Positions 2,171-48,758 of a stretch of DNA of 64,000 nt are shown piece by piece. The translations under genes and the position numbers were made by a program. Source of the stretch: Ischnura elegans (taxonomy: Eukaryota; Arthropoda; Insecta; Odonata; Coenagrionidae); the NCBI RefSeq assembly GCF_921293095.1, contig NC_060246.1, forward strand, positions 91,385,030 to 91,449,029, read 5' to 3'. Numbering within the stretch: the first letter of the stretch is position 1; every line of letters starts with the position of its first letter. The notes under the pieces are model-generated. The model was given only the letters and a program-made list of their open reading frames with translations, did no database searches and had not been told where the DNA came from.

Positions 2171-2455
2171 CAGTTAGAATAACTAACGGGCTAGAAGTCT
2201 TAGATGGACCAATGAGTTATCTCCGGTTTTTCCTCAAAATGTTCGGTAGATAATATTAAACAGGTCATTAGTAACTTTACGCTCAAGTTGTCCTTCCGGT
2301 GTTGTTAGATAGTAGCGGCTTCTGATTGAGAGATAGACGGAAAGCAGTAAAATCGCGAAAGAGAAAGCCATTAGTACTTTACTTCTTGCTTAAATTACGT
2401 TTAATCCGTATTGTTGCTTTTGCTGTGCAGTGCACAGTACTTACTGAAAGAAACA

Positions 2456-3010
2456 TAATTATTTTAAGAAACGGCAAAAGATTAAAGAAATGATGGCCAG
2501 AATGGCGCCCATGCAATGCCACTCCACGGGACGTCACAGGGGCCTAGTTTCTATACTAGCAGATAGGAGTTTTACATCGTCTGAGATTACCAATGCATGC
2601 ATGAGACACAAAGCTCAGATAAACATCTCTTAATAATCACCTATTAAAACTGCCTAAGGTCGGAAATTTTCTTCGTTTGATAAGGTATTGATAATCCTTA
2701 TTTAAGCCAAGCGCTACCTGCTAGCAGGGTACCCTGCTACCTGCTAGCATCCTGCGTCGTATCAGCGCTCAAAGCCTCGCCCCAAGGTCACCTCACTTGC
2801 GGCAGCGGGAACCAGAACGACGTCACCCGGAGTTTTCCCAGCATTCATACTTAGCCGTCGCGTTTTCGTGCGCTTGAAAATTTTCACTTTTCATTTAATC
2901 GCGAAAAATAGATATCGTCATTTTAAAAATCTAAAAGCGTGAAATACGCACTCCAGGAGTAATAATCTTTCGATTTAGGCAATAAAAAAATAATAGGAAA
3001 CCACCCTATT
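2456..3010 (-). mobile_element. 669-bp TIR element family, copy 1 (partly deleted)
   Basis: In minus orientation this matches the copies at 43751 and 52019, from a GGCGCC-CATGCAATGCCACTCC block to the terminal AGGAAACCACCCTATT at 3010. The far terminus is deleted or diverged. An AGCAGGGTACCCTGCT palindrome lies near 2723-2738. Confidence 0.75.
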
Positions 3011-4935
3011 CTGGAGCAAATAAGAGAAGTGAGGAGCGAAACAGATCTACTAAACGAAGGTCTCTCTAAGGCTTCCAAGACTATTGAGCTACCGAGAGTG
3101 GAATTCGTAGTCACTAAGCCGCAATCAACCCCGCTTGTTCAAGTGCTACTCCTCTATTACCCAGAAAGCCTTATAATGTTGGTATCATGAAATCAGCCCC
3201 CTGAAACCCACGTGCATGTTGTTTAATGGCCTCCAATAATCATCTTCCGGGGACCTCACCTACGGAGCTTTGAGAAGGGCAACCCAGAAAGAAATTGAAT
3301 CGCCTTAATTGGCTTGAGACCTTACGACATCACATGCGTAACGTCTCCTGCCTGGCTGAGTCGCTGACAGATGTCCAGATAAGTCCAACGAGACGTAATT
3401 ATCATTTATCAATAGTGTGGAAGCACCTAGTCCATTTGTTTTTCCCTTTCCAAACTAATTAGTAGTTACCCAAACAACACATTATTAACATTACTTGCTT
3501 ATCTATAGATTTTTTGGTTGTGTTGTTTCCGAGTCTTTACTAGTCCAAAAACCCATCCACTCTAACAGAAAACTTTAAATTTCAGCCAATTGACGTTACT
3601 TTTATCCAAATAACCAATAATAGGTGGCTAATAATTCCACAGGAAGAACCGAGTTATAAATTCACTTTCCGCATTGTTGTTGCAGAACATTTTTCGTCTT
3701 TATACTCATGTGAGTACTTTCACATCAATACAACGGCTGATTTTCTCTGACTTTAAAAAGTACCAACATAATTATGCGCTTTACAAAATTGGTAACGATG
3801 TCGTAATTATGTGCATTAAAGTATGCTGAGCATTAAAATGTCGACAAAATTTTCATACTGATTTAGATCAATAATTTTTTGCGAGGCTCTATTTTGACTA
3901 AAGCATCAATGGCAATCTTACTTTTGCAGTTAAATGATCCGAAACGATGAAACGATTATTCATGTAAGATGTTTATGTATGTGTGGTTTTTCGGAGATTT
4001 TCTGACGAAATTGTGTAAATACAGCCTTAACCTATGTCAAAGTTTTCAAACGATTGTTTTCTTTCTTAGTTTTTTAGAGTCGCATGAAGGGAAAAAAATC
4101 GGGCAGGGTTAGCAGAAAACAATATCAGTAGAGAAATATCAAATTAGAGTGAACTTGAGGCATGCTTATCTTGGGCCAGTGCCATTACTTCTCGTGTTAG
4201 GCCTACCTGTATGTAAAATAAGTGAAGCGGGAATTAATTCCAAGAATTTTAGCTCAATCAAAAATTGGAAACATTTAAAGCCTATCGAATCAGAACTAAA
4301 CGAATATTTCCCGCCGCATAGGATGCTTTTCGTGGAGTCGCTGATTCATCGGAAGGATAAAATCTCTATTATTTTGATTTTATCTTATCTTTCATCTTTA
4401 ATGGAAGGAGCTTTAATTAATCGCCCTAGTTCAAGTACACAAATTCCCGGGTGTCAATTACGTTTACCGCCGTGCTATAGTAAGCTTAATCACGAGAAGA
4501 AAATACGGAAATAGACTGCAAAACAGCGATATTTAAAATGTCGTTATTTCTTGTATTATCAGGGATGACAACGGTTTCTTGATTATGGCGTCAGTCACTA
4601 GGACAACTCATTTCATGTTTACCTTTTTCCATTGTTCAAACCTTGTTTGGATTTACAATAGGAATTACTAATCGTTGGCAAGTTTTGCCTATGCGTGAAT
4701 GTGCACGTATTTTTTTATTATGCGTAATATTTTTATGACAATGTGGTGTACATGGTGAGGTTGCCTGGCATGCTGGTATTTTATCACCCCCTTCCAAACA
4801 CCCAAAAGGTGGCTCACAGGGTATAACGTAGATGTAGCTGCACATGTACAGTCGAAATAGTTTCATTATGAATTCCTTTGTATTCTTTTTTTGGAAGGAT
4901 TAAATTACGAGTAACGTCGTAAACATACGACCTAA
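3011..4935. other. Intergenic, nothing recognised
   Basis: AT-rich unique-looking sequence. The longest frame (121 codons near 4149-4514) uses AT-rich codons and has no domain, and I treat it as chance. Confidence 0.5.
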
Positions 4936-11921: not shown

Positions 11922-12722
11922 TTAATAGAATAGAATAGAATAGGATTTTATTGTTCGAGGACTAGTGTCCTATGGAACAGGATTACAATTTACATACATA
12001 TACACTTATATAAGTGCACTTTCTTATTAATACAAAAGGTAACACACATATCAGAGTATACCCAGGTAAACATTAACAAAAAATAAATTATACACGTCTT
12101 CAGAAAATGAATAGTTACAAAATATACCAACATAACATATATACACTTATTATTATACATTGGCCAATGAACCAGATGGTTTTTCATTAAGGCTTGCGCG
12201 GAAAATTTGATACAGGTGAGCTGTCATAAGCCTTTTAAACTGTTTAATGTTATTAGCCTTAACAATATAATCTGGGATATCATTCCATATTCTCATAGAA
12301 GTATTTAGAGGGGATTGCAGGAACGAGTTTGTTCTGCATTTAGGTATTTTAAAACGTCTCCGCGCCCTAACAACCCTATCACAATTGCTAATGTTGACCA
12401 TTATTCTTTCATATAAATAATCAGGAGTCTTGCTTGACAATAAATTAAACATAAAAATAGAATACTGTAACTTTTTTCGTTCTTCAAGTTTTAGCCACTC
12501 GATCTTTAAGTAGTAAGGAGTAATGTGTTCATGTAATGCCACATTAAATATAAATCTTACACCAGCGTTTAACAATATTTGCATTTTATTAGACAATTCA
12601 TTAGTTAGATCAGACATTACCAGCGAGCAATACTGAATATGAGGAAGGTACAACGATTGAATTAACTTTTTGCGCAATTCAAGAGGTATTAAATGCTTAA
12701 AATGCTTAAGCTGGGCCAACGT
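11922..12722 (-). mobile_element. 5'-truncated non-LTR retrotransposon (LINE) with TTCTA tail
   Basis: The element runs on the minus strand from about 12722, where the coding match stops abruptly, to a 3' tail of TTCTA repeats at about 11926-11941. Truncation at the 5' end with a short tandem-repeat tail is the usual product of LINE insertion. The region between the coding end and the tail is AT-rich 3' UTR. Confidence 0.78.
12153..12719 (-). pseudogene. C-terminal end of a LINE reverse transcriptase (truncated)
   Basis: The 188-residue frame reads LIPLELRKKLIQSLYLPHIQ, then QILLNAGVRFIFN, H-x-TPYYLKIEWLKLEERKK and TPDYLYERI, the post-palm/C-terminal region found in CR1/Jockey-type LINEs (L-x-R-x3-I-x2-L-x-L-P-x2-x-Y; W-L-x-L-x-x-R; P-x-Y-L). 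The catalytic palm with its FADD box is missing through 5' truncation, so it cannot act on its own. The reading frame is still open, implying a fairly recent insertion. Confidence 0.8.
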
Positions 12723-13006
12723 TATATAACACTTATTTGAAATATGTGCTACTTGTTACTTAATAAAGTGCATTTATGTCGAGGAATACATAATTTATGT
12801 GATTTCTAATGAAATTAGGAGCCTAATTGAGCCAAATCTCATAAATAGGAATATTTTTAGTCCAAAAATCAAGGTTTAGAAAATAAAGTCCATTTATTGT
12901 GGTATTAAAGAAAGAATGAGGGAAGGCAAATTCAAAAATTCATTTCTTTTGCCGCTTTAAATCGCTTGAGTAGGAACTCAACCACCTGTAAATATTAGCT
13001 GCAGCA

Positions 13007-15272
13007 GGGCAGTTCCATGGTGTCGGACGTAGAATTTGTGCAAATATTCTCATTTTTTTGCAATGTTTCATTTACTTAAAAGTATTTAAATTAGTTGTGA
13101 GTTATATCACTTGAAAGACCACTTTTCTAGGAACATTTTGACATATAACACATTACAAAAATATGTTTAATTACTAGTGGAAAAAAATAATTTCTTTTGT
13201 GTCGGACGTAAAGTGCACAAGTTTTACTTTGTTCTTTTTCAAACTCTTATTCAAAACTCTATGAAATGTGAATGTCTATGCAAATAAAAAAATTTTTAAT
13301 ATTAAATGGACTATGAGCTTCTATATGGGACCTATTTCACCATTGTTGATTAAGTTATTTTACTGCAAGAAATATTTTTCTAAGGTGTCGGACGTAGGAT
13401 TTTTGGTGTCGCACATATAATATACACATATTAAATGGATTTTTGAGGGAAAAAATTGTAAAACCCTATTATACTTTTATTTTTACAATGTGGTACTTAT
13501 TAATTATTCCACAGAAGTAATTGGTATATCAACATTGAAACCCTAAAATATAATTATAAAGTACTTATAGCTAGCATGAACTAAATCAATCTGGCCCTAT
13601 GATACTTTTAAAATTATATTGTCGTCTTGTTCTTCCGTATGGTTCAGGAGCCACAATTTTCTTTATAATTTCTGTTTTTAAATAACTAATGCAGTCTTCA
13701 TTGGCAGGCCAGAAGTAGAAAGCACCTGACTCGGAACAGTGTATTAATTTCACCACGGCTTCATTTTCCAAAACAGATTGAACTTCGCCTGGATAGTAGG
13801 TATCATCATACCTTACAACAACCAAGTCCTGCATTGTTACTAGGTCCTTAAGACTTATGCTTGTGATGGGTTTTGCAAAATCTTCACAAACTTCAGGTTC
13901 TGACATTGAAATGTCAGAATCAAGACTTGGTACTACTCTTTCTTTGCGTTGGATAGTGTCGTCACTTGTTTTGCCAACTAACACAAATTGGTCTGAACTA
14001 GCTGGTTTCACATAGTGCACTTTGTGTGTATTCGAGACCGGAATGCCTGACTCCCAGACATGTTGCACTTCATGTTCCTTTTCTTGCACATCATTACTAG
14101 ACAAATACTCTATCATAATGTTGGGGTTTCTTAAGGTTGCAATTTCAGCAAAGTTTTCTGCAGAGCTCAAAACGATTTCTGTATTATTTGCTTTGTCATA
14201 ATTCCAAACACTTCTCTTAACTTCTCCTCCTATCTCATCTACTACCCCTTTCCCATGGGAGGTTGCGAAGTATTGACAGTGTAAATTAATTTCAAATCTA
14301 CTCTGAAGTAAAGGAAGAACAGAAACACCTTCAGAACACATGAAATCAACAGCAATGCACCAGATCAACATTGAACTAAAGTGTAGAAAACTAACAACAA
14401 GTTTTCCCTGCTTTTTCCCAATGGGCTTGTTATTGTTTCCATAGAGATTGTAAAGCCTTTATACTTTATTTATTAGTTAATGTTAAATCCAATAAAATGA
14501 AAAAATGTGGTTTACATCATTGCTGTTGTGGTGAAGTATTTTTTCTTAAAGTATAATAAATTATTAATACCAGATTTCATTTTTAGGTTATCCTATATGG
14601 ATTATGCTTAACTTAAGATTAAATAAACACAATTCCTACTAATGATGATAATAGTCTAATAGTTGAAACTTAATACAGCCAATATAAATGAAGTTTGCAG
14701 CATTTAAAGGTTGGTGTCAGACGTAGGGTCAGACGTAGACTTATTTTTCTACGTCCGACACCAATGTTTCAAAAAACTGCGGGACATAATTATTTTTCAA
14801 CTCCAGGGTCTTTTAGCTATAAATGAACTCACTTTAAATCTGTACTAACATGGCTTTAAAAAAATGTGTGTGACTGCTATAAAACTAAAACTTCTTTTTT
14901 GGTGTCGGACGTAGAACAAAATGTAATTCAAAGTTAAACTACTCTGTCATGGCAACTAAGAGAGTTAAAAAGTTGCAAATGGCAAACATTTTTTCTCTGT
15001 TTCCTTAATCAACCAAAAACATTAACTTTGGTTTGATATGATTTTTCTTTTTTATTCCATTTATAATAATATGACGTTGTTGCACAAGCCAACGAGAAAA
15101 ACACCGAATGAAATTGGAAAACGAATTACCATTTCTTTAAAGCATGGAAAATTTTCCTAAAACATATGCTAGAAATTTATAACTGGTACTTTTAGCTTTC
15201 CAAAAATGTATAATACATAGGGGTTTGAAATAAAAAAATAGTGTTGAGGTTTGCAATTTTGTGGAATTGCCC
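13007..15272. mobile_element. Candidate DNA transposon with subterminal GTGTCGGACGTAG repeats
   Basis: The proposed ends are GGGCAGTTCCA (13007) and TGGAATTGCCC (15272), an 11-bp inverted repeat with one mismatch, flanked by AGCA on each side. Inside, GGTGTCGGACGTAG or close variants occur at 13019, 13197, 13384 and 13405 on one side of the ORF and at 14713, 14726, 14749 (inverted) and 14901 on the other, and none within it. This distribution resembles transposase-binding subterminal repeats. The terminal repeat is short, so the exact ends are less certain than the element's existence. Confidence 0.55.
13586..14371 (-). CDS. Transposase-like protein fragment, 261 aa
   Basis: The frame contains YFATSHGKGVVDEIGGEVKR near residues 34-53, a motif I recall from transposon-encoded proteins of cnidarians and arthropods downstream of their catalytic core, though I cannot place the superfamily. 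The C-terminal third (about residues 175-245) reads VVRYDDTYYPGEV, then W-P-x-N-E-D, resembling a small SH3/Tudor-like barrel. The N-terminal catalytic part expected of such proteins is missing, either in unseen exons or lost. The ORF has no in-frame stops over 785 bases and sits centrally between the two clusters of repeated motifs, which supports its being the element's own gene. Confidence 0.5.
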   Translation of the reverse strand: MLIWCIAVDFMCSEGVSVLPLLQSRFEINLHCQYFATSHGKGVVDEIGGEVKRSVWNYDKANNTEIVLSSAENFAEIATLRNPNIMIEYLSSNDVQEKEHEVQHVWESGIPVSNTHKVHYVKPASSDQFVLVGKTSDDTIQRKERVVPSLDSDISMSEPEVCEDFAKPITSISLKDLVTMQDLVVVRYDDTYYPGEVQSVLENEAVVKLIHCSESGAFYFWPANEDCISYLKTEIIKKIVAPEPYGRTRRQYNFKSIIGPD

Positions 15273-17559
15273 AGCAGCGTAGTTTAATGAATGCTGTAAA
15301 TACTGCACAATATATGCAGTTAAATTTATCCTTTTGATGGAGTCCTGAAAATTACTTTCGATGCAATGAAAACTCTAAATAACAGTGTAGCACTACCTTC
15401 ACTGAAGAGTAATGTCATAATTGCTTATTGAATAAGAGGACTAAATGCAGTCGTATCTCGTGACATCTAGTATTACACCAAAACTTACCACTTTCAAATT
15501 TAGGAATATTTATGCAGCACAGTATTTGACTGAAGATTATGAAGGAAATGGAATACGTTTTTATACACATTTCAGTCACATTTTCATTTGTGGATGCAGC
15601 TGATATTATACGCAGTACCCATATTTTCGTTGCTCACAAAAGGTTGACATCTTAAAAAAAAATATATAGATAAATTACTGCGTAAAAACTGAAAATGTTT
15701 TTCATCTTATTGAAGTGAGGCGTAATATGACTTTTCCAGGCCATCTTTCACGATTTAGGACTTCTTTGGTTATATGTTAGGAGAGACGATTGATGATGCA
15801 ACATCGACCATTAACTTTGTTTTATTTCGTAATATCCGGCCTCCGCCAACTGATCTAATGGAAAGTTATTCGGTGGACAGCATTTTAGCGCGACAGAGAG
15901 GCAGAGAAATAGACCGGTAGACTGCGTGCCCCCGCTATAGGCTCCAAATCACCTGGGGGACACGGCACGTGTACAGTGCAACAGGACGCGTCGTATTGGC
16001 CGGGAGACTGAAACAGATACGAGCCCCCAGTTTCCTAGTTAATGTACGAAGTGAATTAAACTAGCAGGTATAGAGGAAAGTACTATTTTTAGGTCTTCAT
16101 TTATGATCTCATATTTACATTAACGTGTGAGTATTATATTCCCTTGTCCCTAAAGAAAACCAATTCTTATACAAGCGTACGTGGCTTAGCATGATGAAAA
16201 TATGTTGTAGTATCGTTAAAATAGAACAAAAATGGTGACTTTCCATACAAAATGTATATAAATTCAACTGTCCTTGGTGTCATATCCTCGTACGTGCCAT
16301 TATTTAGTGGATCCTTTTTCACTGAATTCATATCAACCCATTGGTCACCATAGAATTTACCTTATCGAATATAATTTTGTGCAGTGATGTAACAGACGCT
16401 ATCTAAATTATACTTTATTCTGCTCAATTGCAAGGACAAATTTTCACTTAAGTGGGAACATCTTTTATCTGATATTCATCAAAGTGAATATTAGCTACCC
16501 TGACGTTTCTATCAACTTCTTTCACCCAAAATATCAATTTTTTGCGACATATATGTATAGCGACAAATACGAATGCGGATTTAATCACATTTGAGACAAT
16601 ACTAAGGTCTGTAACCATCTTTTATTACCACCAAAACGCTTTTAGTAATCTGGTGGGACAGTCAACTCGATGAGCTCGTTTTAATATCCGTTTTTAAGAA
16701 ATTAACATCATTTATTTACCACACAAAAAGAATTTTTTCTATCACAACGGAAAAATCTTCACAGGTGAAAATGAGCTTTTTTACGAGGTAGAGGATGAGT
16801 GAGACAAAAAGCGGGGCTAAACTGGAACAATAAAAACGACTTACGGTATTTGGGTCATCGCGTCAACCTTTGTTTGTTTTAATCCAACGACCCCCGTGGC
16901 TCTGCTATTCTTTACTTGCATCCTTCTTTTTTTTGCACCGGCTTTCTTTCCACTCCCTTCCCTTATTTCATTTCACCAAAGTGTATTATTCTGCCCCTCG
17001 CGGGATAATTATCCTCTGCAACAAAAAAGACCACCCGTCAGTCACAACGATGCAAATAAAACAAGAGGTCGGAGATGACGTTGTTCCCCGGGCTTAGAGG
17101 GAACGATCCTTTAACCTCCATCCTCTCTGCCTTCGCCTCGCGCCGACAAGCAATTTACTTCAGTGTCGGATACAGAGAGGATGAAAGACCTCCGCCACAC
17201 GGCTGCTTTTTTACGTTTCCATTGCATGACACCCTGGCGGGCTCGTAATTTTTTTTCTGAGCGATGTCATCTTTTTTTTTTTCTTAGCAATAAAATCTCC
17301 AGATCTTCTATAATGACTATCTTCTACAAGGAAACGATTACGGCAACAGGTTTTTGTAATGCTTTTGGGAAAAAGCAGCCATTGCAACCCATTCTCTTGC
17401 AGAAGTTTACATTTTTTGTCATTAGCGTCAGCTATGTATTTGGACGCGAGCAAAAAAACTACGAGAAAATGGCCGTCGGGTTGAAACATAATCGGTATCA
17501 AGCTTTCACTCGGGAGAATAAGTTTATATATCGATATTATAATTAATTTTTATTATTGT
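15273..17559. other. Intergenic, nothing recognised
   Basis: AT-rich with a CpG-richer part at about 15830-16030. The overlapping frames at 16870-17546 on both strands have no domain or codon signal. Confidence 0.45.
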
Positions 17560-43700: not shown

Positions 43701-46700
43701 GAGATAGTCTAGTTAACTCTTCCTCGAAGGCACAGTTTAGGGACCAACAGAATAGGGTGGTTTCCTATTATTTTTTTATTGCCTAAATTGAAAGATTATT
43801 ACTCCTGGAGTTCGTATTTCACGCTTTTAAATTTTTAAATGACGATATCTATTTTTCGCGATTAAATGAAAAGTGAAAATTTTCAAGCGCGCGAAAACGC
43901 GACGCGTAAGTATGAATGCCGGGAAATCTCTCCGCGTGACGTATTTTTGGTTCCCGTTGCCGCCCTGCGAGGTGACCTTGAGGCGAGGCTTAGCGCTGAT
44001 ACGACGCAGGCTGCTAGCGGGTAGCCTAGTACCCTGTTGGCTGGTAGCGTTTGGCTTAAATAAGGATTATTAATAACTTATCAAACGAGGAAAACTTTCC
44101 GACCTTAGCCAGTTTTAATAAGTGATTATTAAGACATGTTTCCCTGAGCTCTGCGCCTCATGCATGCATTGGTAACCTCAGATGATTTATAACTCCTATC
44201 ATCTCCTATAGAAACTAGGTCCCTGTGGCGTCACGTGGAGTGGCATCGCATGGGCGCCAATCTGGCCCTTTTCAAATGAGGATAAAAATGGACCATTGCC
44301 ATTCGTCTAACCCGGTATTTCTAAAACAAAATAATTTGTGTATTATGAATACACTAATGGTGGGTAACGAATCGCAATCAATGCCTTTCGTTTTCTTTGA
44401 TGAAGGAAACCACCCTATTCCGTGACGCAGGGGCGGTCTGGCCGTCTCGGATAGTCGGAAATCGTCGAGGGCCCAGAGGCCCAGAGCTTAGGGGGCCCCC
44501 ACAATGCTCGCGTTTATCGTTTTTTTTACATTTCAGTGCAGATTCAAGGAATAAATTCACTAAATAGATAATAGAACCATTATGCATTATTAAACTTTAT
44601 TAGCTGAGAAATTCTCACTTTTCGCTATATTTTTTCTTACGAAATTGCTAATTTCTATTAACACTTACCTAGTTTTTAAGAGCCAGAATAGCGTCAAAAT
44701 CCATTTCCGGGAATGCAATTTCCCAAAATTTTCCGGATGAAGACCCCCGATTCCCTAGGTAAGGTGGGCCTAATCATGAGGCTAGGCCGAGAGCCCCATA
44801 TCACCCCAGACCGCCGGTGCTTCCACGTTTTCTCCGTCTCATCATACTGTTGGTGGAAAGTGTAAATTCTTCTGATTTTCGACCATTTGCTGCCTTTGAC
44901 TCCCGTATTCCGAGGCTCATCTGTCACTGCCGCACTGTAGTGAAGTCGTCAACTTATCTGCGATTAGGGCCTCATATTTTCGAGGTCGACGACGGACCGA
45001 TAAATGGTAAAAAAAAAAAAGCGGTGGCAAAAAGCGGAACTATTTCGTTTTGTAAACTCTATTCGAGAGCTGATTAAGGATCCCATATTTTGTTTAAAAA
45101 GTTCCCTCATGGTAGCATCGCGGAATGTAAATGTTGAAGAAAGTTCTTTGAAAACGGCCGAATGGCTTACCTGCATTCAGTTTAATTTCAAAATCCTGAA
45201 AATTATATCTTTCCATATATATACTCCAAATTCCTCCATGTACGTATTTTCATCACTTTTATGCTTTCTTCCGATTGCCTTCATACTTTTATTTCTTCAT
45301 ACTTCATACTGATTATATACATACCTTTGAAATATGCACACAGCTTTGAGACAGTAAATTGCAGAGGCGAAGTAAGGGGATGAGCGGGGGAATTATTGAT
45401 TTTAATTCTGAAATAATTCAAGTTATGGTAATCTTTAATGTGACTGTCCAATTTTTTTTATTTCACTAGTTTAACAAACATTGATGAAAATGAATTCATG
45501 AATATCTACAAGCCACTTGCTTAAGCATATTCCCAGAACTCATACGCCGCTAGGTATTGCATACCACCAAGGCGCCGCGAAAAGTAATGGGCCTATCTTT
45601 TAATTCTCGCAATTAAGAAAAAAAAATTCTCCTGATACTATAACGGTTATTCTACTGTATTTGGACAAATAATGGTTCTATAGAGTCTACGATTATGATT
45701 TTAAAAATTTTATGGAAAAAAAAACATGAACTAAACAATTAGTGGCACCAGGATGGTATGCAATACTTCTCAGTAAAAGGGAGGGCTCAGGGACCTCTTT
45801 GAAAAAAATTATAGTGGTGTAACCTATGCAGCTAACGGATTAATTTTGTACCCGATTTAATACCGAACAGTACTAGAAAGTTACCCTGATTACTGATATT
45901 TTTCTCTTTGCTCTGAAATTACAGTGGACAAACAGTCCCCCAGGCTCATCCTACACTATCCACTGCATGAATACTTCAATTTTAATAAGCCTGAAACATC
46001 GATGTGCTAGCTTTATAAATCCTGAATTGTACTGAAAAGACTTTCAGAACAATCTTTTGTAGCATATACTATGATAGAAATTTTAAATGACACAACATCA
46101 TTTAAAACTTAGATTGCAGAAAATTACTTGTTTAAAACCCAATAATGCTGATTTTATTATTCTCACTGGCTTTGATGTTGGGTAGTGGGTAGTAGTAGCA
46201 TCCATATATTTTCACATGAGGCCACTTTTTCAACTTCAAGCATGCATAACTTACATTATTTATAGGAAAAGTGACAGCATGTCCATCCATGTACTTTGCC
46301 AATGGTGGAAGGTGAAGGGAAGTGTTTCAAAGTCAATATGCTAAATTTAAATTAAATTTAAAAATTAAGAGAAATTTTATATACTTAATTTGAGTATTAC
46401 TATTTATCTATGAAATTATGAGTTTTGAAAACTCTTCAGGAAGATTCAAAGCAATGGTACCAGAAAATAACCTCAGAATTTAATTTTCATTCTCAGGGAT
46501 GGCACTTGATTGTGTCATCGTGTGCCTTTGGGTCAAAAGCTAGTCCAAAAGTCAACCGGTTGAGCGAGCAGCTTTGCAATGGCAGTGGAGAAGTACAATC
46601 CCATTTGCTTGACATCCCGGTCACCTCTGCTACAACTGGAAGGACTTACAAGAATGTTCATTGTGCTGTCTGCAATGAAGATGCGGAAAATCTTCTGCCA

Positions 46701-48758
46701 CAGACAGCTGTGTTACTAGCTGATGGTGAATTTTCAGTGGAAGATGCTCATTATCTAGATGGTAGCCTCTCTTGGGTGCAAGTTTCTAAGTACTCGTCAA
46801 AAGGCCCTTTCAGTACTACAGAAGAAAATTCTGTGGGAGCAGATGACTATTCTCATATAGAAAGTGACTATAGTCCCATAGAGATGTTCAAGAGTGTCTT
46901 TTCCCCCCTAAACATGTCTCTCTCAAACCTAAATTTCAGTGACGAATTTCACCAACCAGACTTTTCTGATCCTGAAATCCCATATGGAGAGAGGAATCTT
47001 AATGACGAAATGGGAAAGGAAATGCCTCAGGAAAACTTCAACAAGGTCACTCCTCCAGAATTTACTTCAGACTTAATGAGCAACTCCAGTAACCGCCATG
47101 CCTTAAGAGCTCTAAAATACTTGTTGAGTAAAGACTTTTGGGGAGATGTTCACTCTGCATCAAGTTCTACGAAAGGTTTTATGGACTTCAGTGGGGAATT
47201 GATGCAGCAGAAGGAGAAACAAAAAAAATCACCTGAAAACTTCAGGAATACATCAAGATATCAACTGTTTCTCAGTGGAGAGTTCATGCAACGTTGTAAA
47301 AATGTAATCAATTCTTGTGAAAAAAGTTGGGAGGGGTGGCATGATGATACCCATAATCTATGTATCTCATACACAATGCCAGTTTATAAGTATGCAAAAG
47401 GAATGGTTTCAGTATTCAAAAATCCACATTGTGCTTTGTGCAACCATGTAGCTATTGATGAACTTGAGTGTCTGAATAGGCTGCCTGTACCATTTAATAT
47501 GGAGATTGAAACTTTTATTTCAACACAGGTGAACTTCAGTTTTGGTAATGTTACTGCTGGGCATGAAAAATGTGGTATGAAGACTGTTTGGGACCCATTG
47601 TTTAAGCAATGCTACCACCTTGACGATGAAGAAGGAAACAGAAATTATTCAATGACGGTGTATCTAACTCCCAATCCCCCGACCAAATCTTCTGTAGTTC
47701 CAAAACAGGATGAGACTGTGCTTGAAAATGCTATAAATTTTGATGATGGTTGTAAAAATACCACATTAATGACAATGAGTGATGTCCAATGGTACTTGGG
47801 GTATGCTTTTTTTGGAGTCTCTATGACTTGCCTTATTTTGCATTTGGTCTCATATGCATACCCAAGGAAGTTTTTTGAGTTATCTTCCGGGGAAAACTCA
47901 AAATCATTTTATTCGTCTCCTACGTCCCTAGAGGGTAGACAAATCACTGGAAATTCCTTTTTAATCCTCTCATGGCTACTCTTGATTGGCCAGTTATTGT
48001 TTGTAGTTGGAGTTCCCCGTACAGAAGTAAGAGAGGTATGTCTATCAATTGCAGTTTTTCTCAATTTTCTTTCACTTGCTGCTGTTTCTTGGCTCTCCGT
48101 TTTTTGCCTTCAAGTTTTTGCATCTCATTTTTCTCTTCAATCTTTTAAAGCTATGAGCTCCCTAGAATCTGGATCTGGGCCTCCGCCATTGAAACTCAGT
48201 CTTATTGCTTGGATAATTCCTATTGTATTTTCAAGTCTGTTTTTAAGTTTTGATTTAGTACCTGGTGATTTAAAACCATGCCTTGCAAGAGGTGGAGCTT
48301 GCTGGTATGGTGACACAGTGAGTTTTAGAATATTTTTTGTACTCCCAGCTTTGCTTATGCTTGCTGGAGATGGTTGCATTTTTACAGCAATTATTTTTGG
48401 TACACATGATACGAGGGAGAGAAATAGATCAACCTCCACGAGAAGGAAAAGTAAATCTGGTAGACAGTGCAGTGCTGTTAGAAGTTATGATCATTTCTAC
48501 TTTAGGTTTTGTGCTAGGCTGGGAATCATAATGACTATTTCTTGGTCATGTGCTGCTATTGCTTCGATATGGAATGTGCGCTCTATGTGGTATGGGTATG
48601 TGATTTTTTCTGGATTTCAAGGAATTTATATATTCTTGGCTTCTGGGTCCAAAGCTAGAATTACCGATTTGATTTGGGCCAAATATAAGGGACAGCAGGA
48701 GCCAGTAATTAGAGAGAGAAGCATAAAAAGATATTCAAAAGCAGCTAAAAACATATGA
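40530..48758 (+). CDS. Somatomedin-B-containing adhesion/secretin-like GPCR (three-exon gene; span includes introns)
   Basis: Three plus-strand exons (40530-40711, 42350-42491, 46440-48758) join with matching phases into about 880 residues. Residues 5-30 are a signal peptide (K-L-S-S-R then a hydrophobic run ending ALA). Residues 47-79 carry the cysteine spacing of a somatomedin-B knot, including WCRC, then C-x5-GDCC-x-D, split by intron 1. About residues 168-190 have a VTS-x3-G-x-TY-x-N-x-H-C-A-x-C motif, repeated in spirit near residue 439 (CALCN), in a long cysteine- and N-glycosylation-rich ectodomain. Seven hydrophobic helices lie near 559-583, 609-633, 640-672, 693-713, 736-762, 802-819 and 825-844, followed by a short basic tail. 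The family role would be ligand or adhesion sensing at the plasma membrane; the ligand is unknown. I see no clear GPS autoproteolysis site. The fold call is firm; the exact subfamily (methuselah-like versus other adhesion type) is not. The alternative start is Met5. Confidence 0.85.
41517..41590 (+). pseudogene. tRNA-Ile-like pseudogene
   Basis: GCTCAGTTGATTAGAGCG, a GCTAACTACGC anticodon arm and GCGAAGGTCG match the D arm, anticodon stem and variable region of tRNA-Ile, and the 3' end reads GGGCCA as in that tRNA. The 5' acceptor strand is replaced, the B box is damaged (GTGCGATCCC) and the anticodon position reads AAC. It is therefore not functional, and may be a SINE head. It lies in intron 1 of the GPCR gene. 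Confidence 0.6.
41639..42114. mobile_element. hAT-type MITE interrupted by a hairpin insertion
   Basis: The element begins CAGTGGCGTAGCCAGGAATT and ends GGTACGCCACT. Its sequence matches the reverse complement of the 601-862 element along both halves, but the middle is split by 219 foreign bases (41837-42055). No 8-bp flanking duplication is visible, so the outer insertion is old or rearranged. It lies in intron 1 of the GPCR gene. Confidence 0.7.
41837..42055. mobile_element. Hairpin MITE nested inside another MITE, 9-bp duplication
   Basis: AGTAATTGT occurs at 41828-41836 and 42056-42064, exactly where the host MITE is interrupted. The insert is dominated by an imperfect hairpin (about 41838-42018) with arms such as TTTTGGGCTATGTCGCC and GGCGGCATAGCCCAAA folding around GAATTC. 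A 9-bp duplication is typical of Mutator-like elements, but the right end extends about 36 bases past the hairpin, so the family call is tentative. Confidence 0.6.
42350..42491 (+). CDS. GPCR exon 2: core of somatomedin-B-like domain
   Basis: A polypyrimidine tract and CAG precede 42350 (TGTTTTCAG). The exon starts with one base (A) that completes CGA, then reads W-C-R-C-D-P-I-C-V-K-F-G-D-C-C-Y-D-Y. It ends at CTG before GTAAGA, in phase 0. The cysteine order C-x-C-x3-C-x5-CC with GDCC is the somatomedin-B signature. The exon is too short (47 codons) to stand out as an ORF on its own. Confidence 0.82.
42492..43750. other. GPCR intron 2, first part
   Basis: AT-rich intron. A CCCGTGCCCCCTTTTCCTGC patch near 43090-43130 looks like a fragment of a GC-rich MITE terminus; otherwise nothing. 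Confidence 0.4.
43751..44419 (+). mobile_element. 669-bp TIR element family, copy 3
   Basis: The element starts AATAGGGTGGTTTCCT and ends AGGAAACCACCCTATT: perfect 16-bp inverted termini. Its length equals that of copy 4 and the two are nearly identical throughout. It has no transposase; the short frames inside are conserved only because the DNA is. It lies in intron 2 of the GPCR gene. Confidence 0.88.
44428..44819. mobile_element. hAT-like MITE, 392 bp
   Basis: The ends CAGGGGCGGTCTGG and CCAGACCGCCGGTG are inverted repeats with a GC-rich left part and AT-rich middle. A matching 8-bp duplication is not evident. It starts 8 bases after the right end of the 669-bp element, in intron 2 of the GPCR gene. 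Confidence 0.6.
45554..45766. mobile_element. Short MITE with GTATTGCATACC termini, 213 bp
   Basis: GTATTGCATACCACCAAGGC at the left and its inverted partner GGATGGTATGCAATAC at the right form about a 23-bp imperfect inverted repeat. The middle is AT-rich. It lies in intron 2 of the GPCR gene. No flanking duplication was identified. Confidence 0.55.
46440..48758 (+). CDS. GPCR exon 3: ectodomain remainder, 7TM domain and stop
   Basis: The open frame runs further upstream only through a non-ATG codon, and CTTCAG immediately before 46440 is a plausible acceptor in phase 0, matching exon 2. The exon encodes 772 residues: about 445 of Cys- and Asn-rich ectodomain, then seven hydrophobic segments from about 47790 to 48650, then a lysine/arginine-rich tail ending at a TGA at 48756-48758. 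Loss of introns across the whole ectodomain and 7TM is notable but fits a large terminal exon. Confidence 0.88.
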   Translation, partial: EDSKQWYQKITSEFNFHSQGWHLIVSSCAFGSKASPKVNRLSEQLCNGSGEVQSHLLDIPVTSATTGRTYKNVHCAVCNEDAENLLPQTAVLLADGEFSVEDAHYLDGSLSWVQVSKYSSKGPFSTTEENSVGADDYSHIESDYSPIEMFKSVFSPLNMSLSNLNFSDEFHQPDFSDPEIPYGERNLNDEMGKEMPQENFNKVTPPEFTSDLMSNSSNRHALRALKYLLSKDFWGDVHSASSSTKGFMDFSGELMQQKEKQKKSPENFRNTSRYQLFLSGEFMQRCKNVINSCEKSWEGWHDDTHNLCISYTMPVYKYAKGMVSVFKNPHCALCNHVAIDELECLNRLPVPFNMEIETFISTQVNFSFGNVTAGHEKCGMKTVWDPLFKQCYHLDDEEGNRNYSMTVYLTPNPPTKSSVVPKQDETVLENAINFDDGCKNTTLMTMSDVQWYLGYAFFGVSMTCLILHLVSYAYPRKFFELSSGENSKSFYSSPTSLEGRQITGNSFLILSWLLLIGQLLFVVGVPRTEVREVCLSIAVFLNFLSLAAVSWLSVFCLQVFASHFSLQSFKAMSSLESGSGPPPLKLSLIAWIIPIVFSSLFLSFDLVPGDLKPCLARGGACWYGDTVSFRIFFVLPALLMLAGDGCIFTAIIFGTHDTRERNRSTSTRRKSKSGRQCSAVRSYDHFYFRFCARLGIIMTISWSCAAIASIWNVRSMWYGYVIFSGFQGIYIFLASGSKARITDLIWAKYKGQQEPVIRERSIKRYSKAAKNI

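Follow-up and report, generated by a model that had tools for sequence, protein, structure and literature searches.

A transposon of Ischnura elegans, probably of the Sola lineage, and related families whose differing subterminal motifs lie at similar distances from the ends

Introduction

A stretch of 64,000 nucleotides of the genome of Ischnura elegans (hereafter the window) carries a transposon whose ends are lined with copies of one short motif, and five related families in the same genome (B, C, D, E and F, the window family being A) carry other motifs at nearly the same distances from their ends. We consider it likely that the window element belongs to a D-D-D transposon lineage with 4-bp target duplications, probably Sola, that the motifs are binding sites of the cognate transposase, and that the geometry of these sites is constrained while their sequence co-diverges with the protein.

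If the spacing is constrained, the six families in one genome would form a natural experiment in which the recognition sequence varies and the end architecture stays constant. Such a system would let the assembly of long-range transposase complexes on chromatin be tested, would bear on the way in which a newly arisen family avoids being cross-mobilised by its relatives, and would supply orthogonal pairs of transposase and site. The geometry also offers a means, independent of motif, of locating the ends of such elements.

The window element

The initial annotation proposed a DNA transposon at 13007-15272, and this is borne out by the termini, GGGCAGTTCC and GGAATTGCCC, and by the direct duplication of AGCA on either side; the proposed coordinates are the exact ends of the insertion (Table 1). 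On its sequence, the element is a cut-and-paste DNA transposon, presumably now dead through internal deletion. It aligns to positions 1-1317 and 2333-3105 of another copy (L055), and between the two aligned blocks about 1,015 bp of element have been replaced by 178 bp of filler. A genome search with 14326-14505, which skips very common words, matched only itself. We infer that the filler arose by interrupted gap repair following excision, of which it is the expected product. The ORF had been described as transposase-like and is indeed of transposase origin, but it is a C-terminal remnant rather than a whole gene: the window copy keeps roughly the C-terminal third of the protein, with the last of three conserved aspartates, and the stretch coding for the first two was lost to the filler.

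Searching the window with TGTCGGACGTAG at up to two mismatches gives 11 matches where 1.4 are expected and where the maximum among 100 shuffles is 7. Seven of the 11 fall within 13021-14914, and an eighth copy in that region, TGTCGCACATA at 13407, is detected with an 11-base query at two mismatches. The reported arrangement of eight motif copies around one ORF, one of them inverted and none inside the ORF, was therefore confirmed. The pair at 14715 and 14727, described as overlapping by one base, is adjacent when the sites are counted as 12-mers and overlaps only when 13 bases are counted. Decay, put forward to explain the variant sites, holds for S4 but not for every variant. The final A of the 13200 site is also present in two other copies (L031 and L055), and the counterpart of the 14727 site is imperfect in most other copies and perfect in four (L035, L037, L039 and L052); these variants recur, and so not all variant sites represent decay.

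Table 1. Features of the transposon insertion, in window positions
Feature	Position	Strand	Basis or remark
Target site duplication AGCA, left copy	13003..13006	.	direct reading
Left terminal inverted repeat GGGCAGTTCC (3' end, past the stop codon of the transposase)	13007..13016	+	direct reading
Site S1, TGTCGGACGTAG, 15 nt from the end	13021..13032	+	motif search
Site S2, TGTCGGACGTAA	13200..13211	+	motif search
Site S3, TGTCGGACGTAG	13386..13397	+	motif search
Site S4, decayed in the window copy (TGTCGCACATA)	13407..13417	+	most other copies have TGTCGGACGTA without mismatch
261-aa ORF, C-terminal transposase remnant	13586..14371	-	HGKGVVD (third conserved Asp) and the weakly Tudor-like C-terminus kept; N-terminal end in filler
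178-bp filler replacing about 1,015 bp	14326..14503	.	alignment to other copies
5'-side site TGTCAGACGTAG	14715..14726	+	motif search
5'-side imperfect site GGTCAGACGTAG	14727..14738	+	motif search
5'-side inverted site (TGTCGGACGTAG on the minus strand)	14749..14760	-	motif search
Site S6, TGTCGGACGTAG, in the window copy 370 nt inside the right (5') end	14903..14914	+	motif search
Right terminal inverted repeat (GGAATTGCCC on the plus strand)	15263..15272	-	direct reading
Target site duplication AGCA, right copy	15273..15276	.	direct reading

Family A copies in the genome

The genome searched comprises 1.72 Gb in 110 contigs. Other copies with readable ends were recovered from it: searching with 13000-15280 at the DNA level returned 42 matches, one of them the window itself, and 19 of the others begin close to the left end and reach query position 1326, at identities of 86-90%. 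An automatic end search (12-bp inverted repeats plus a 4-bp duplication) recovered none of the ends used here, which were taken by reading the boundaries shared between copies. Both ends were read in 19 family A copies, including the one in the window, and 18 of them have perfect 4-bp duplications; the exception is L039 (TGAT/TGCT). Outside this count stand L056, whose right end was not aligned, L058, which has no valid left end, and L042/L043. Lengths are 3.05-3.29 kb for 17 of the 19, 5.9 kb for L032 and 2.27 kb for the window copy. The terminal pattern GGGCARTTCCATNGTGTCGGACGTA, at no more than three mismatches, occurs at 33 places genome-wide, and its reversed control at 1. The family A ends in L043 at 6206 and L042 at 1588 (G000:C2:140830587-140853205) lie 22.6 kb apart and are both flanked by AGTG, a layout that would fit a single element broken up by nested insertions.

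Family A sites lie about 15, 193, 380 and 401 from the 3' end and about -561, -549, -526 (inverted) and -373 from the 5' end. Counting a site as present at no more than two mismatches to TGTCGGACGTA, and adding L056 to the 19, 14 of these 20 copies have all eight, five have seven (L034, L035, L039, L051 and L052) and one has six (L037); a ninth, weak site near -497 is found in 11 of the 20. Copies found through DNA similarity, and not through the motif, carry the same clusters, which speaks against the refuting case set out with the initial annotation, in which copies share the ORF and lack the clusters. As a single word the motif is not enriched genome-wide (188 exact matches, against 273 for the reversed control word), but its occurrences are clustered. 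Of the first 100 motif places listed, 70 belong to 14 clusters whose members lie no more than 6 kb from a neighbour, and the other 30 stand alone; uniform placement would give 0.08 neighbour pairs.

The sites are also conserved above other subterminal 11-mers (0.974 versus 0.931, sd 0.017; 9 of 5,000 random sets reach 0.974) in an alignment of the window copy with seven copies chosen by DNA similarity and not by motif. The window copy is 86-88% identical to these seven, of which six are 96-99% identical to one another and L057 is about 90%. An earlier test gave 0.965 versus 0.924 (5 of 5,000) for the window and copies picked by motif, and is biased because of that choice.

Frame breaks or stops occur in many other family A copies, and nine family A protein matches all break off at residue 185. 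Some of the family has therefore probably multiplied as non-autonomous elements that relied on transposase supplied in trans, and part of it seems to stem from one frame-broken master that was moved in trans.

Related transposases

A tblastn search of the same genome gave 131 matches, the lowest at 24% identity, many of them in open frames of 500-887 codons. Read by eye, the long relatives conserve a cluster of the form H-x2-C-x-C-x2-H ... C-x6-C-x4-C-x2-C, from which family E departs, and three aspartates, the first before [FY][AS], the second in FSD or variants of it and the third in HGK-x3-D. In the seven long relatives with all three read, 79-85 residues separate the first aspartate from the second and 41-42 the second from the third. 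The conserved aspartates may reflect an RNase H-type fold with a putative catalytic D-D-D triad. A Pfam scan of the window ORF and five long relatives returned nothing above cut-off; the best sub-threshold matches, each in one of the five long relatives, were DUF7869 (E 0.028, 14.4 bits against a cut-off of 26) and HTH_23 (E 0.029, 14.6 bits against 24.6). Sequence searches of the PDB returned no transposase match. Among viral and prokaryote contigs, 8 and 19 stretches fit the peptide patterns and none passed tblastn.

Pairwise transposase identity among families A-F is 26-43% (with fragments only for A). In the protein tree C and D form the one supported pair among the six (SH-aLRT 97), and these two share nearly one motif and a short first gap of 166-167. 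Motif and geometry track the protein tree where it is resolved. Over 3.5 kb, two family C copies match at 99.97% identity; both contain an open frame of 773 codons, and their duplications differ. On these grounds family C has probably moved recently.

Three further observations concern individual relatives. Two of the distant CDGIGGTVKR group that includes L048 have 878-codon frames and are oppositely oriented at a distance of about 5 kb (G000:C19:1276276 and 1281232). At about 4327 of L060 (G000:C1:28161500-28166300) a family B copy switches at TTAA to sequence beginning CCCTTATCCGGGCACC, which by eye looks like a piggyBac-type insertion. A family C copy, at about 519-1470 of L061, contains an insert of about 950 bp with inverted ends GGCGGTCCTCGACTTTCGTACA and repeated CGACTTTCGTACA.

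Spacing of sites across six families

Motif arrays of their own are present in three of the five long relatives (L046, L047 and L049); in the DNA fetched for L048, of a distant CDGIGGTVKR group, and for L050, the two being kin to each other (43%), no array was seen. A repeat scan of twelve further downstream pieces, picked by protein match and not by motif, found an array in nine (six of family B, one of family C, and the new families E and F) and none in the DNA fetched for L063, L064 and L067. The array is thus present in 6 of the 11 lineages examined, and the five without one in the DNA fetched indicate that it may not be universal.

All six motifs contain CGG, placed elsewhere within the motif of family E (Table 2). 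Each of the six families has an inverted site 527-556 nt in from its 5' end, the distances of E being counted from its true ends. The mean SD of the distances of S1-S3 and S6 is 3.7, reached by none of 20,000 uniform placements, although this null model is a crude one and the families, being of common descent, are not independent.

Table 2. Motifs, site distances and gaps (nt) and target duplications by family
Family	Motif	S1 from 3' end	S2 from 3' end	S3 from 3' end	S4 from 3' end	S6 (plus) from 5' end	Gap S1-S2	Gap S2-S3	Gap S3-S4	Duplications
A	GTGTCGGACGTAG	15	193	380	401	373	178	187	21	
B	GTGACGGAATTAC	15	194	383	397	373	179	189	14	TAGT
C	GTAACGGGTGTTAC	14	181	370	392	374	167	189	22	TGGA and ATCA
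D	GTAACGGATGTTAC	15	181	371	394	369	166	190	23	TACT
E	TGTTACGTACGGGAC	13	193	384	404	375	180	191	20	TATA
F	TCACGGACTGAC	16	195	383	403	376	179	188	20	TCAA

Perfect 4-bp duplications flank all six elements of the five other families with both ends read, those of E and of the second C copy having been read by eye. For families C-F the outer ends were assigned by eye, from similar termini combined with the fit of the duplication, so that as evidence these duplications are not wholly independent; on one boundary the two C copies agree.

The DNA between the sites was compared between families in 45 alignments, with z from -1.9 to 2.5, and does not rise above shuffled levels. With blastn, short matches appear in 6 of 15 family pairs; the best is a 34-bp in-register match between C and D (88%, in the 5' region), and the spacing shared by C and D may therefore partly be inherited DNA. 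An A/T-rich stretch lies on the end-proximal side of S2, S3 and S6 (0.764 versus 0.718; 22 of 4,000 random sets reach it), and the opposite side is A/T-poor; this comparison was made after the sequences had been seen and was set aside. Taken across the six families, the distances suggest that spacing is itself part of end recognition by the transposase.

Classification

Sola elements have a DDD transposase, 4-bp duplications, lengths of 2-9 kb, very variable termini and inverted repeats from 11 bp (PMC10741241), and Sola2 likewise makes 4-bp target duplications, at an AWWT target in amoebozoan cases (PMC3627910). Compared by described traits, the present families resemble Sola in their 4-bp duplications, length and variable termini, and their putative D-D-D triad would fit it too. 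Unlike the AWWT of Sola2 (PMC3627910), their targets are not confined to AT-rich sequence (e.g. AGCA, TGAA, TCCA, TGTA and TCTG), and they possess a fixed subterminal array, none being seen for Sola in the excerpts of PMC10741241 and PMC3627910. By its duplications and putative DDD triad the lineage is probably Sola, with an end architecture that is probably new within it. The initial suggestion of an undescribed element type is weakened accordingly, since 4-bp duplications and DDD are stated Sola traits (PMC10741241); what does look undescribed is one geometry common to families with different motifs. Excerpts of open-licence PMC papers yielded none on the spacing of subterminal sites.

In Hermes, a hAT element, subterminal repeats are bound by a zinc-binding domain of the transposase, and the ends differ, with the zinc-binding domains engaging one end and not the other (PMC10368747). 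The duplications made by Hermes are 8 bp long, and its ends, of about 450 bp, carry 17 and 14 repeats of 4 bp that crowd towards the tips (PMC10368747). The present families are like Hermes in having subterminal repeats and two ends that differ in their sites, and unlike it in their 4-bp duplications, 13-15 bp sites and near-fixed distances over about 400-560 bp. Assignment to hAT was rejected on the duplications, which are 4 bp and not 8 bp, and on the result that no BED or hAT dimerisation domain matched above the Pfam cut-off.

Short subterminal repeats in both orientations are characteristic of En/Spm (CACTA) and Ac elements, whose duplications are 3 bp in CACTA and 8 bp in Ac. The families described here likewise have sites in both orientations, and unlike those elements they have 4-bp duplications and no Pfam domain; En/Spm was rejected on duplication length. 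Academ, with a 3-bp target duplication (PMC5199201), was rejected against the 4 bp found here, and piggyBac and Kolobok, which duplicate TTAA (PMC9587614), were rejected on the varied 4-bp duplications, none of which is TTAA.

Interpretation of the site array

Subterminal transposase-binding repeats, the interpretation first offered for the window copy, remain the best reading of its layout, binding being the predicted role of the sites. Each 13-15 bp repeated motif would be a binding site for the transposase of its own family, the terminal 10-13 bp would be the cleavage ends, with S1 adjoining one of them, and transposase on the sites would fold both ends into a single asymmetric complex. The presence of S1 and S2 at the 3' end only would make the two ends distinguishable. 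As families diverged, protein and motif would have changed jointly, and the distances would have stayed near-fixed through a conserved shape of the complex or through its chromatin.

The sites could instead serve to control transcription of the transposase gene, as promoter or enhancer elements occupied by a transcription factor of the host or by the transposase acting as repressor, with cutting independent of them. The gene is flanked by sites, and the 5' cluster is suitably placed for a promoter, but S1-S4 are found past the gene's 3' end, S1 adjoins the terminus in all six families, and families of one genome have different motifs, so that we regard this account as improbable; the difference in motifs would likewise disfavour a single host factor. 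The arrays might also be repeats within an ordinary element of another superfamily, En/Spm or hAT, with the ORF a fragment of a host gene. Such repeats do occur in En/Spm elements and in Hermes among hAT elements, but a duplication of 4 bp, and not 3 or 8 bp, contradicts this, and the window ORF and the five long relatives contain no Pfam hAT or CACTA domain; we assign it next to no probability.

Common ancestry of all the families might account for the spacing, the ends of one ancestral element having diverged by substitution with few indels and the distances being unconstrained. The short in-register match kept by C and D is in keeping with such descent. Yet the inter-site DNA is unalignable above shuffles where transposase identities are near 30%, and DNA so saturated should have many indels, whereas the distance from S1 to S3 is 356-371 bp in the six families. 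We accord this explanation very little probability.

If the motifs are binding sites of the cognate transposase, it is conceivable, in our estimate doubtful, that the ends are read by geometry no less than by sequence, the transposase with a Tudor-like C-terminus lying on one DNA face, at steps of nucleosome length, in a complex on a phased nucleosome array. The S1-S2 gaps (166-180 bp), the S2-S3 gaps (187-191 bp) and the S3-S4 gaps (20-23 bp, with 14 in family B) correspond to about 16-17, 18 and 2 helical turns, and most are near whole turns of 10.5 bp, the exception being the 14 of family B. The long S1-S2 and S2-S3 gaps are near nucleosome-repeat lengths.

An alignment of the C-terminal stretch of the transposase (A2) matched five PDB chains, three of PHF19, one of an Agenet protein and one of a DUF724 protein, with a best E of 0.011; we take these chains to have Tudor or Agenet folds. 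With a wider alignment (A3) the PHF19 match weakened to E 0.25 and a proline racemase was added, and Pfam gave BRWD_AD alone for this stretch (E 0.1, in one of five). Three reversed sequences, a control set smaller than A2 or A3, gave no such PDB match. These matches hint weakly that the C-terminal stretch may be Tudor-like. Were the ends read by geometry, a new family could arise through change of the DNA-binding domain and motif alone, with the scaffold kept.

Other features of the window

A 188-aa ORF on the minus strand at 12153-12719 has no Pfam match and resembles the C-terminal region of the reverse transcriptase of non-LTR retrotransposons. On the plus strand, 46425-48758 holds an open frame of 777 codons that by eye looks like a single-exon seven-helix receptor of the Methuselah or adhesion type.
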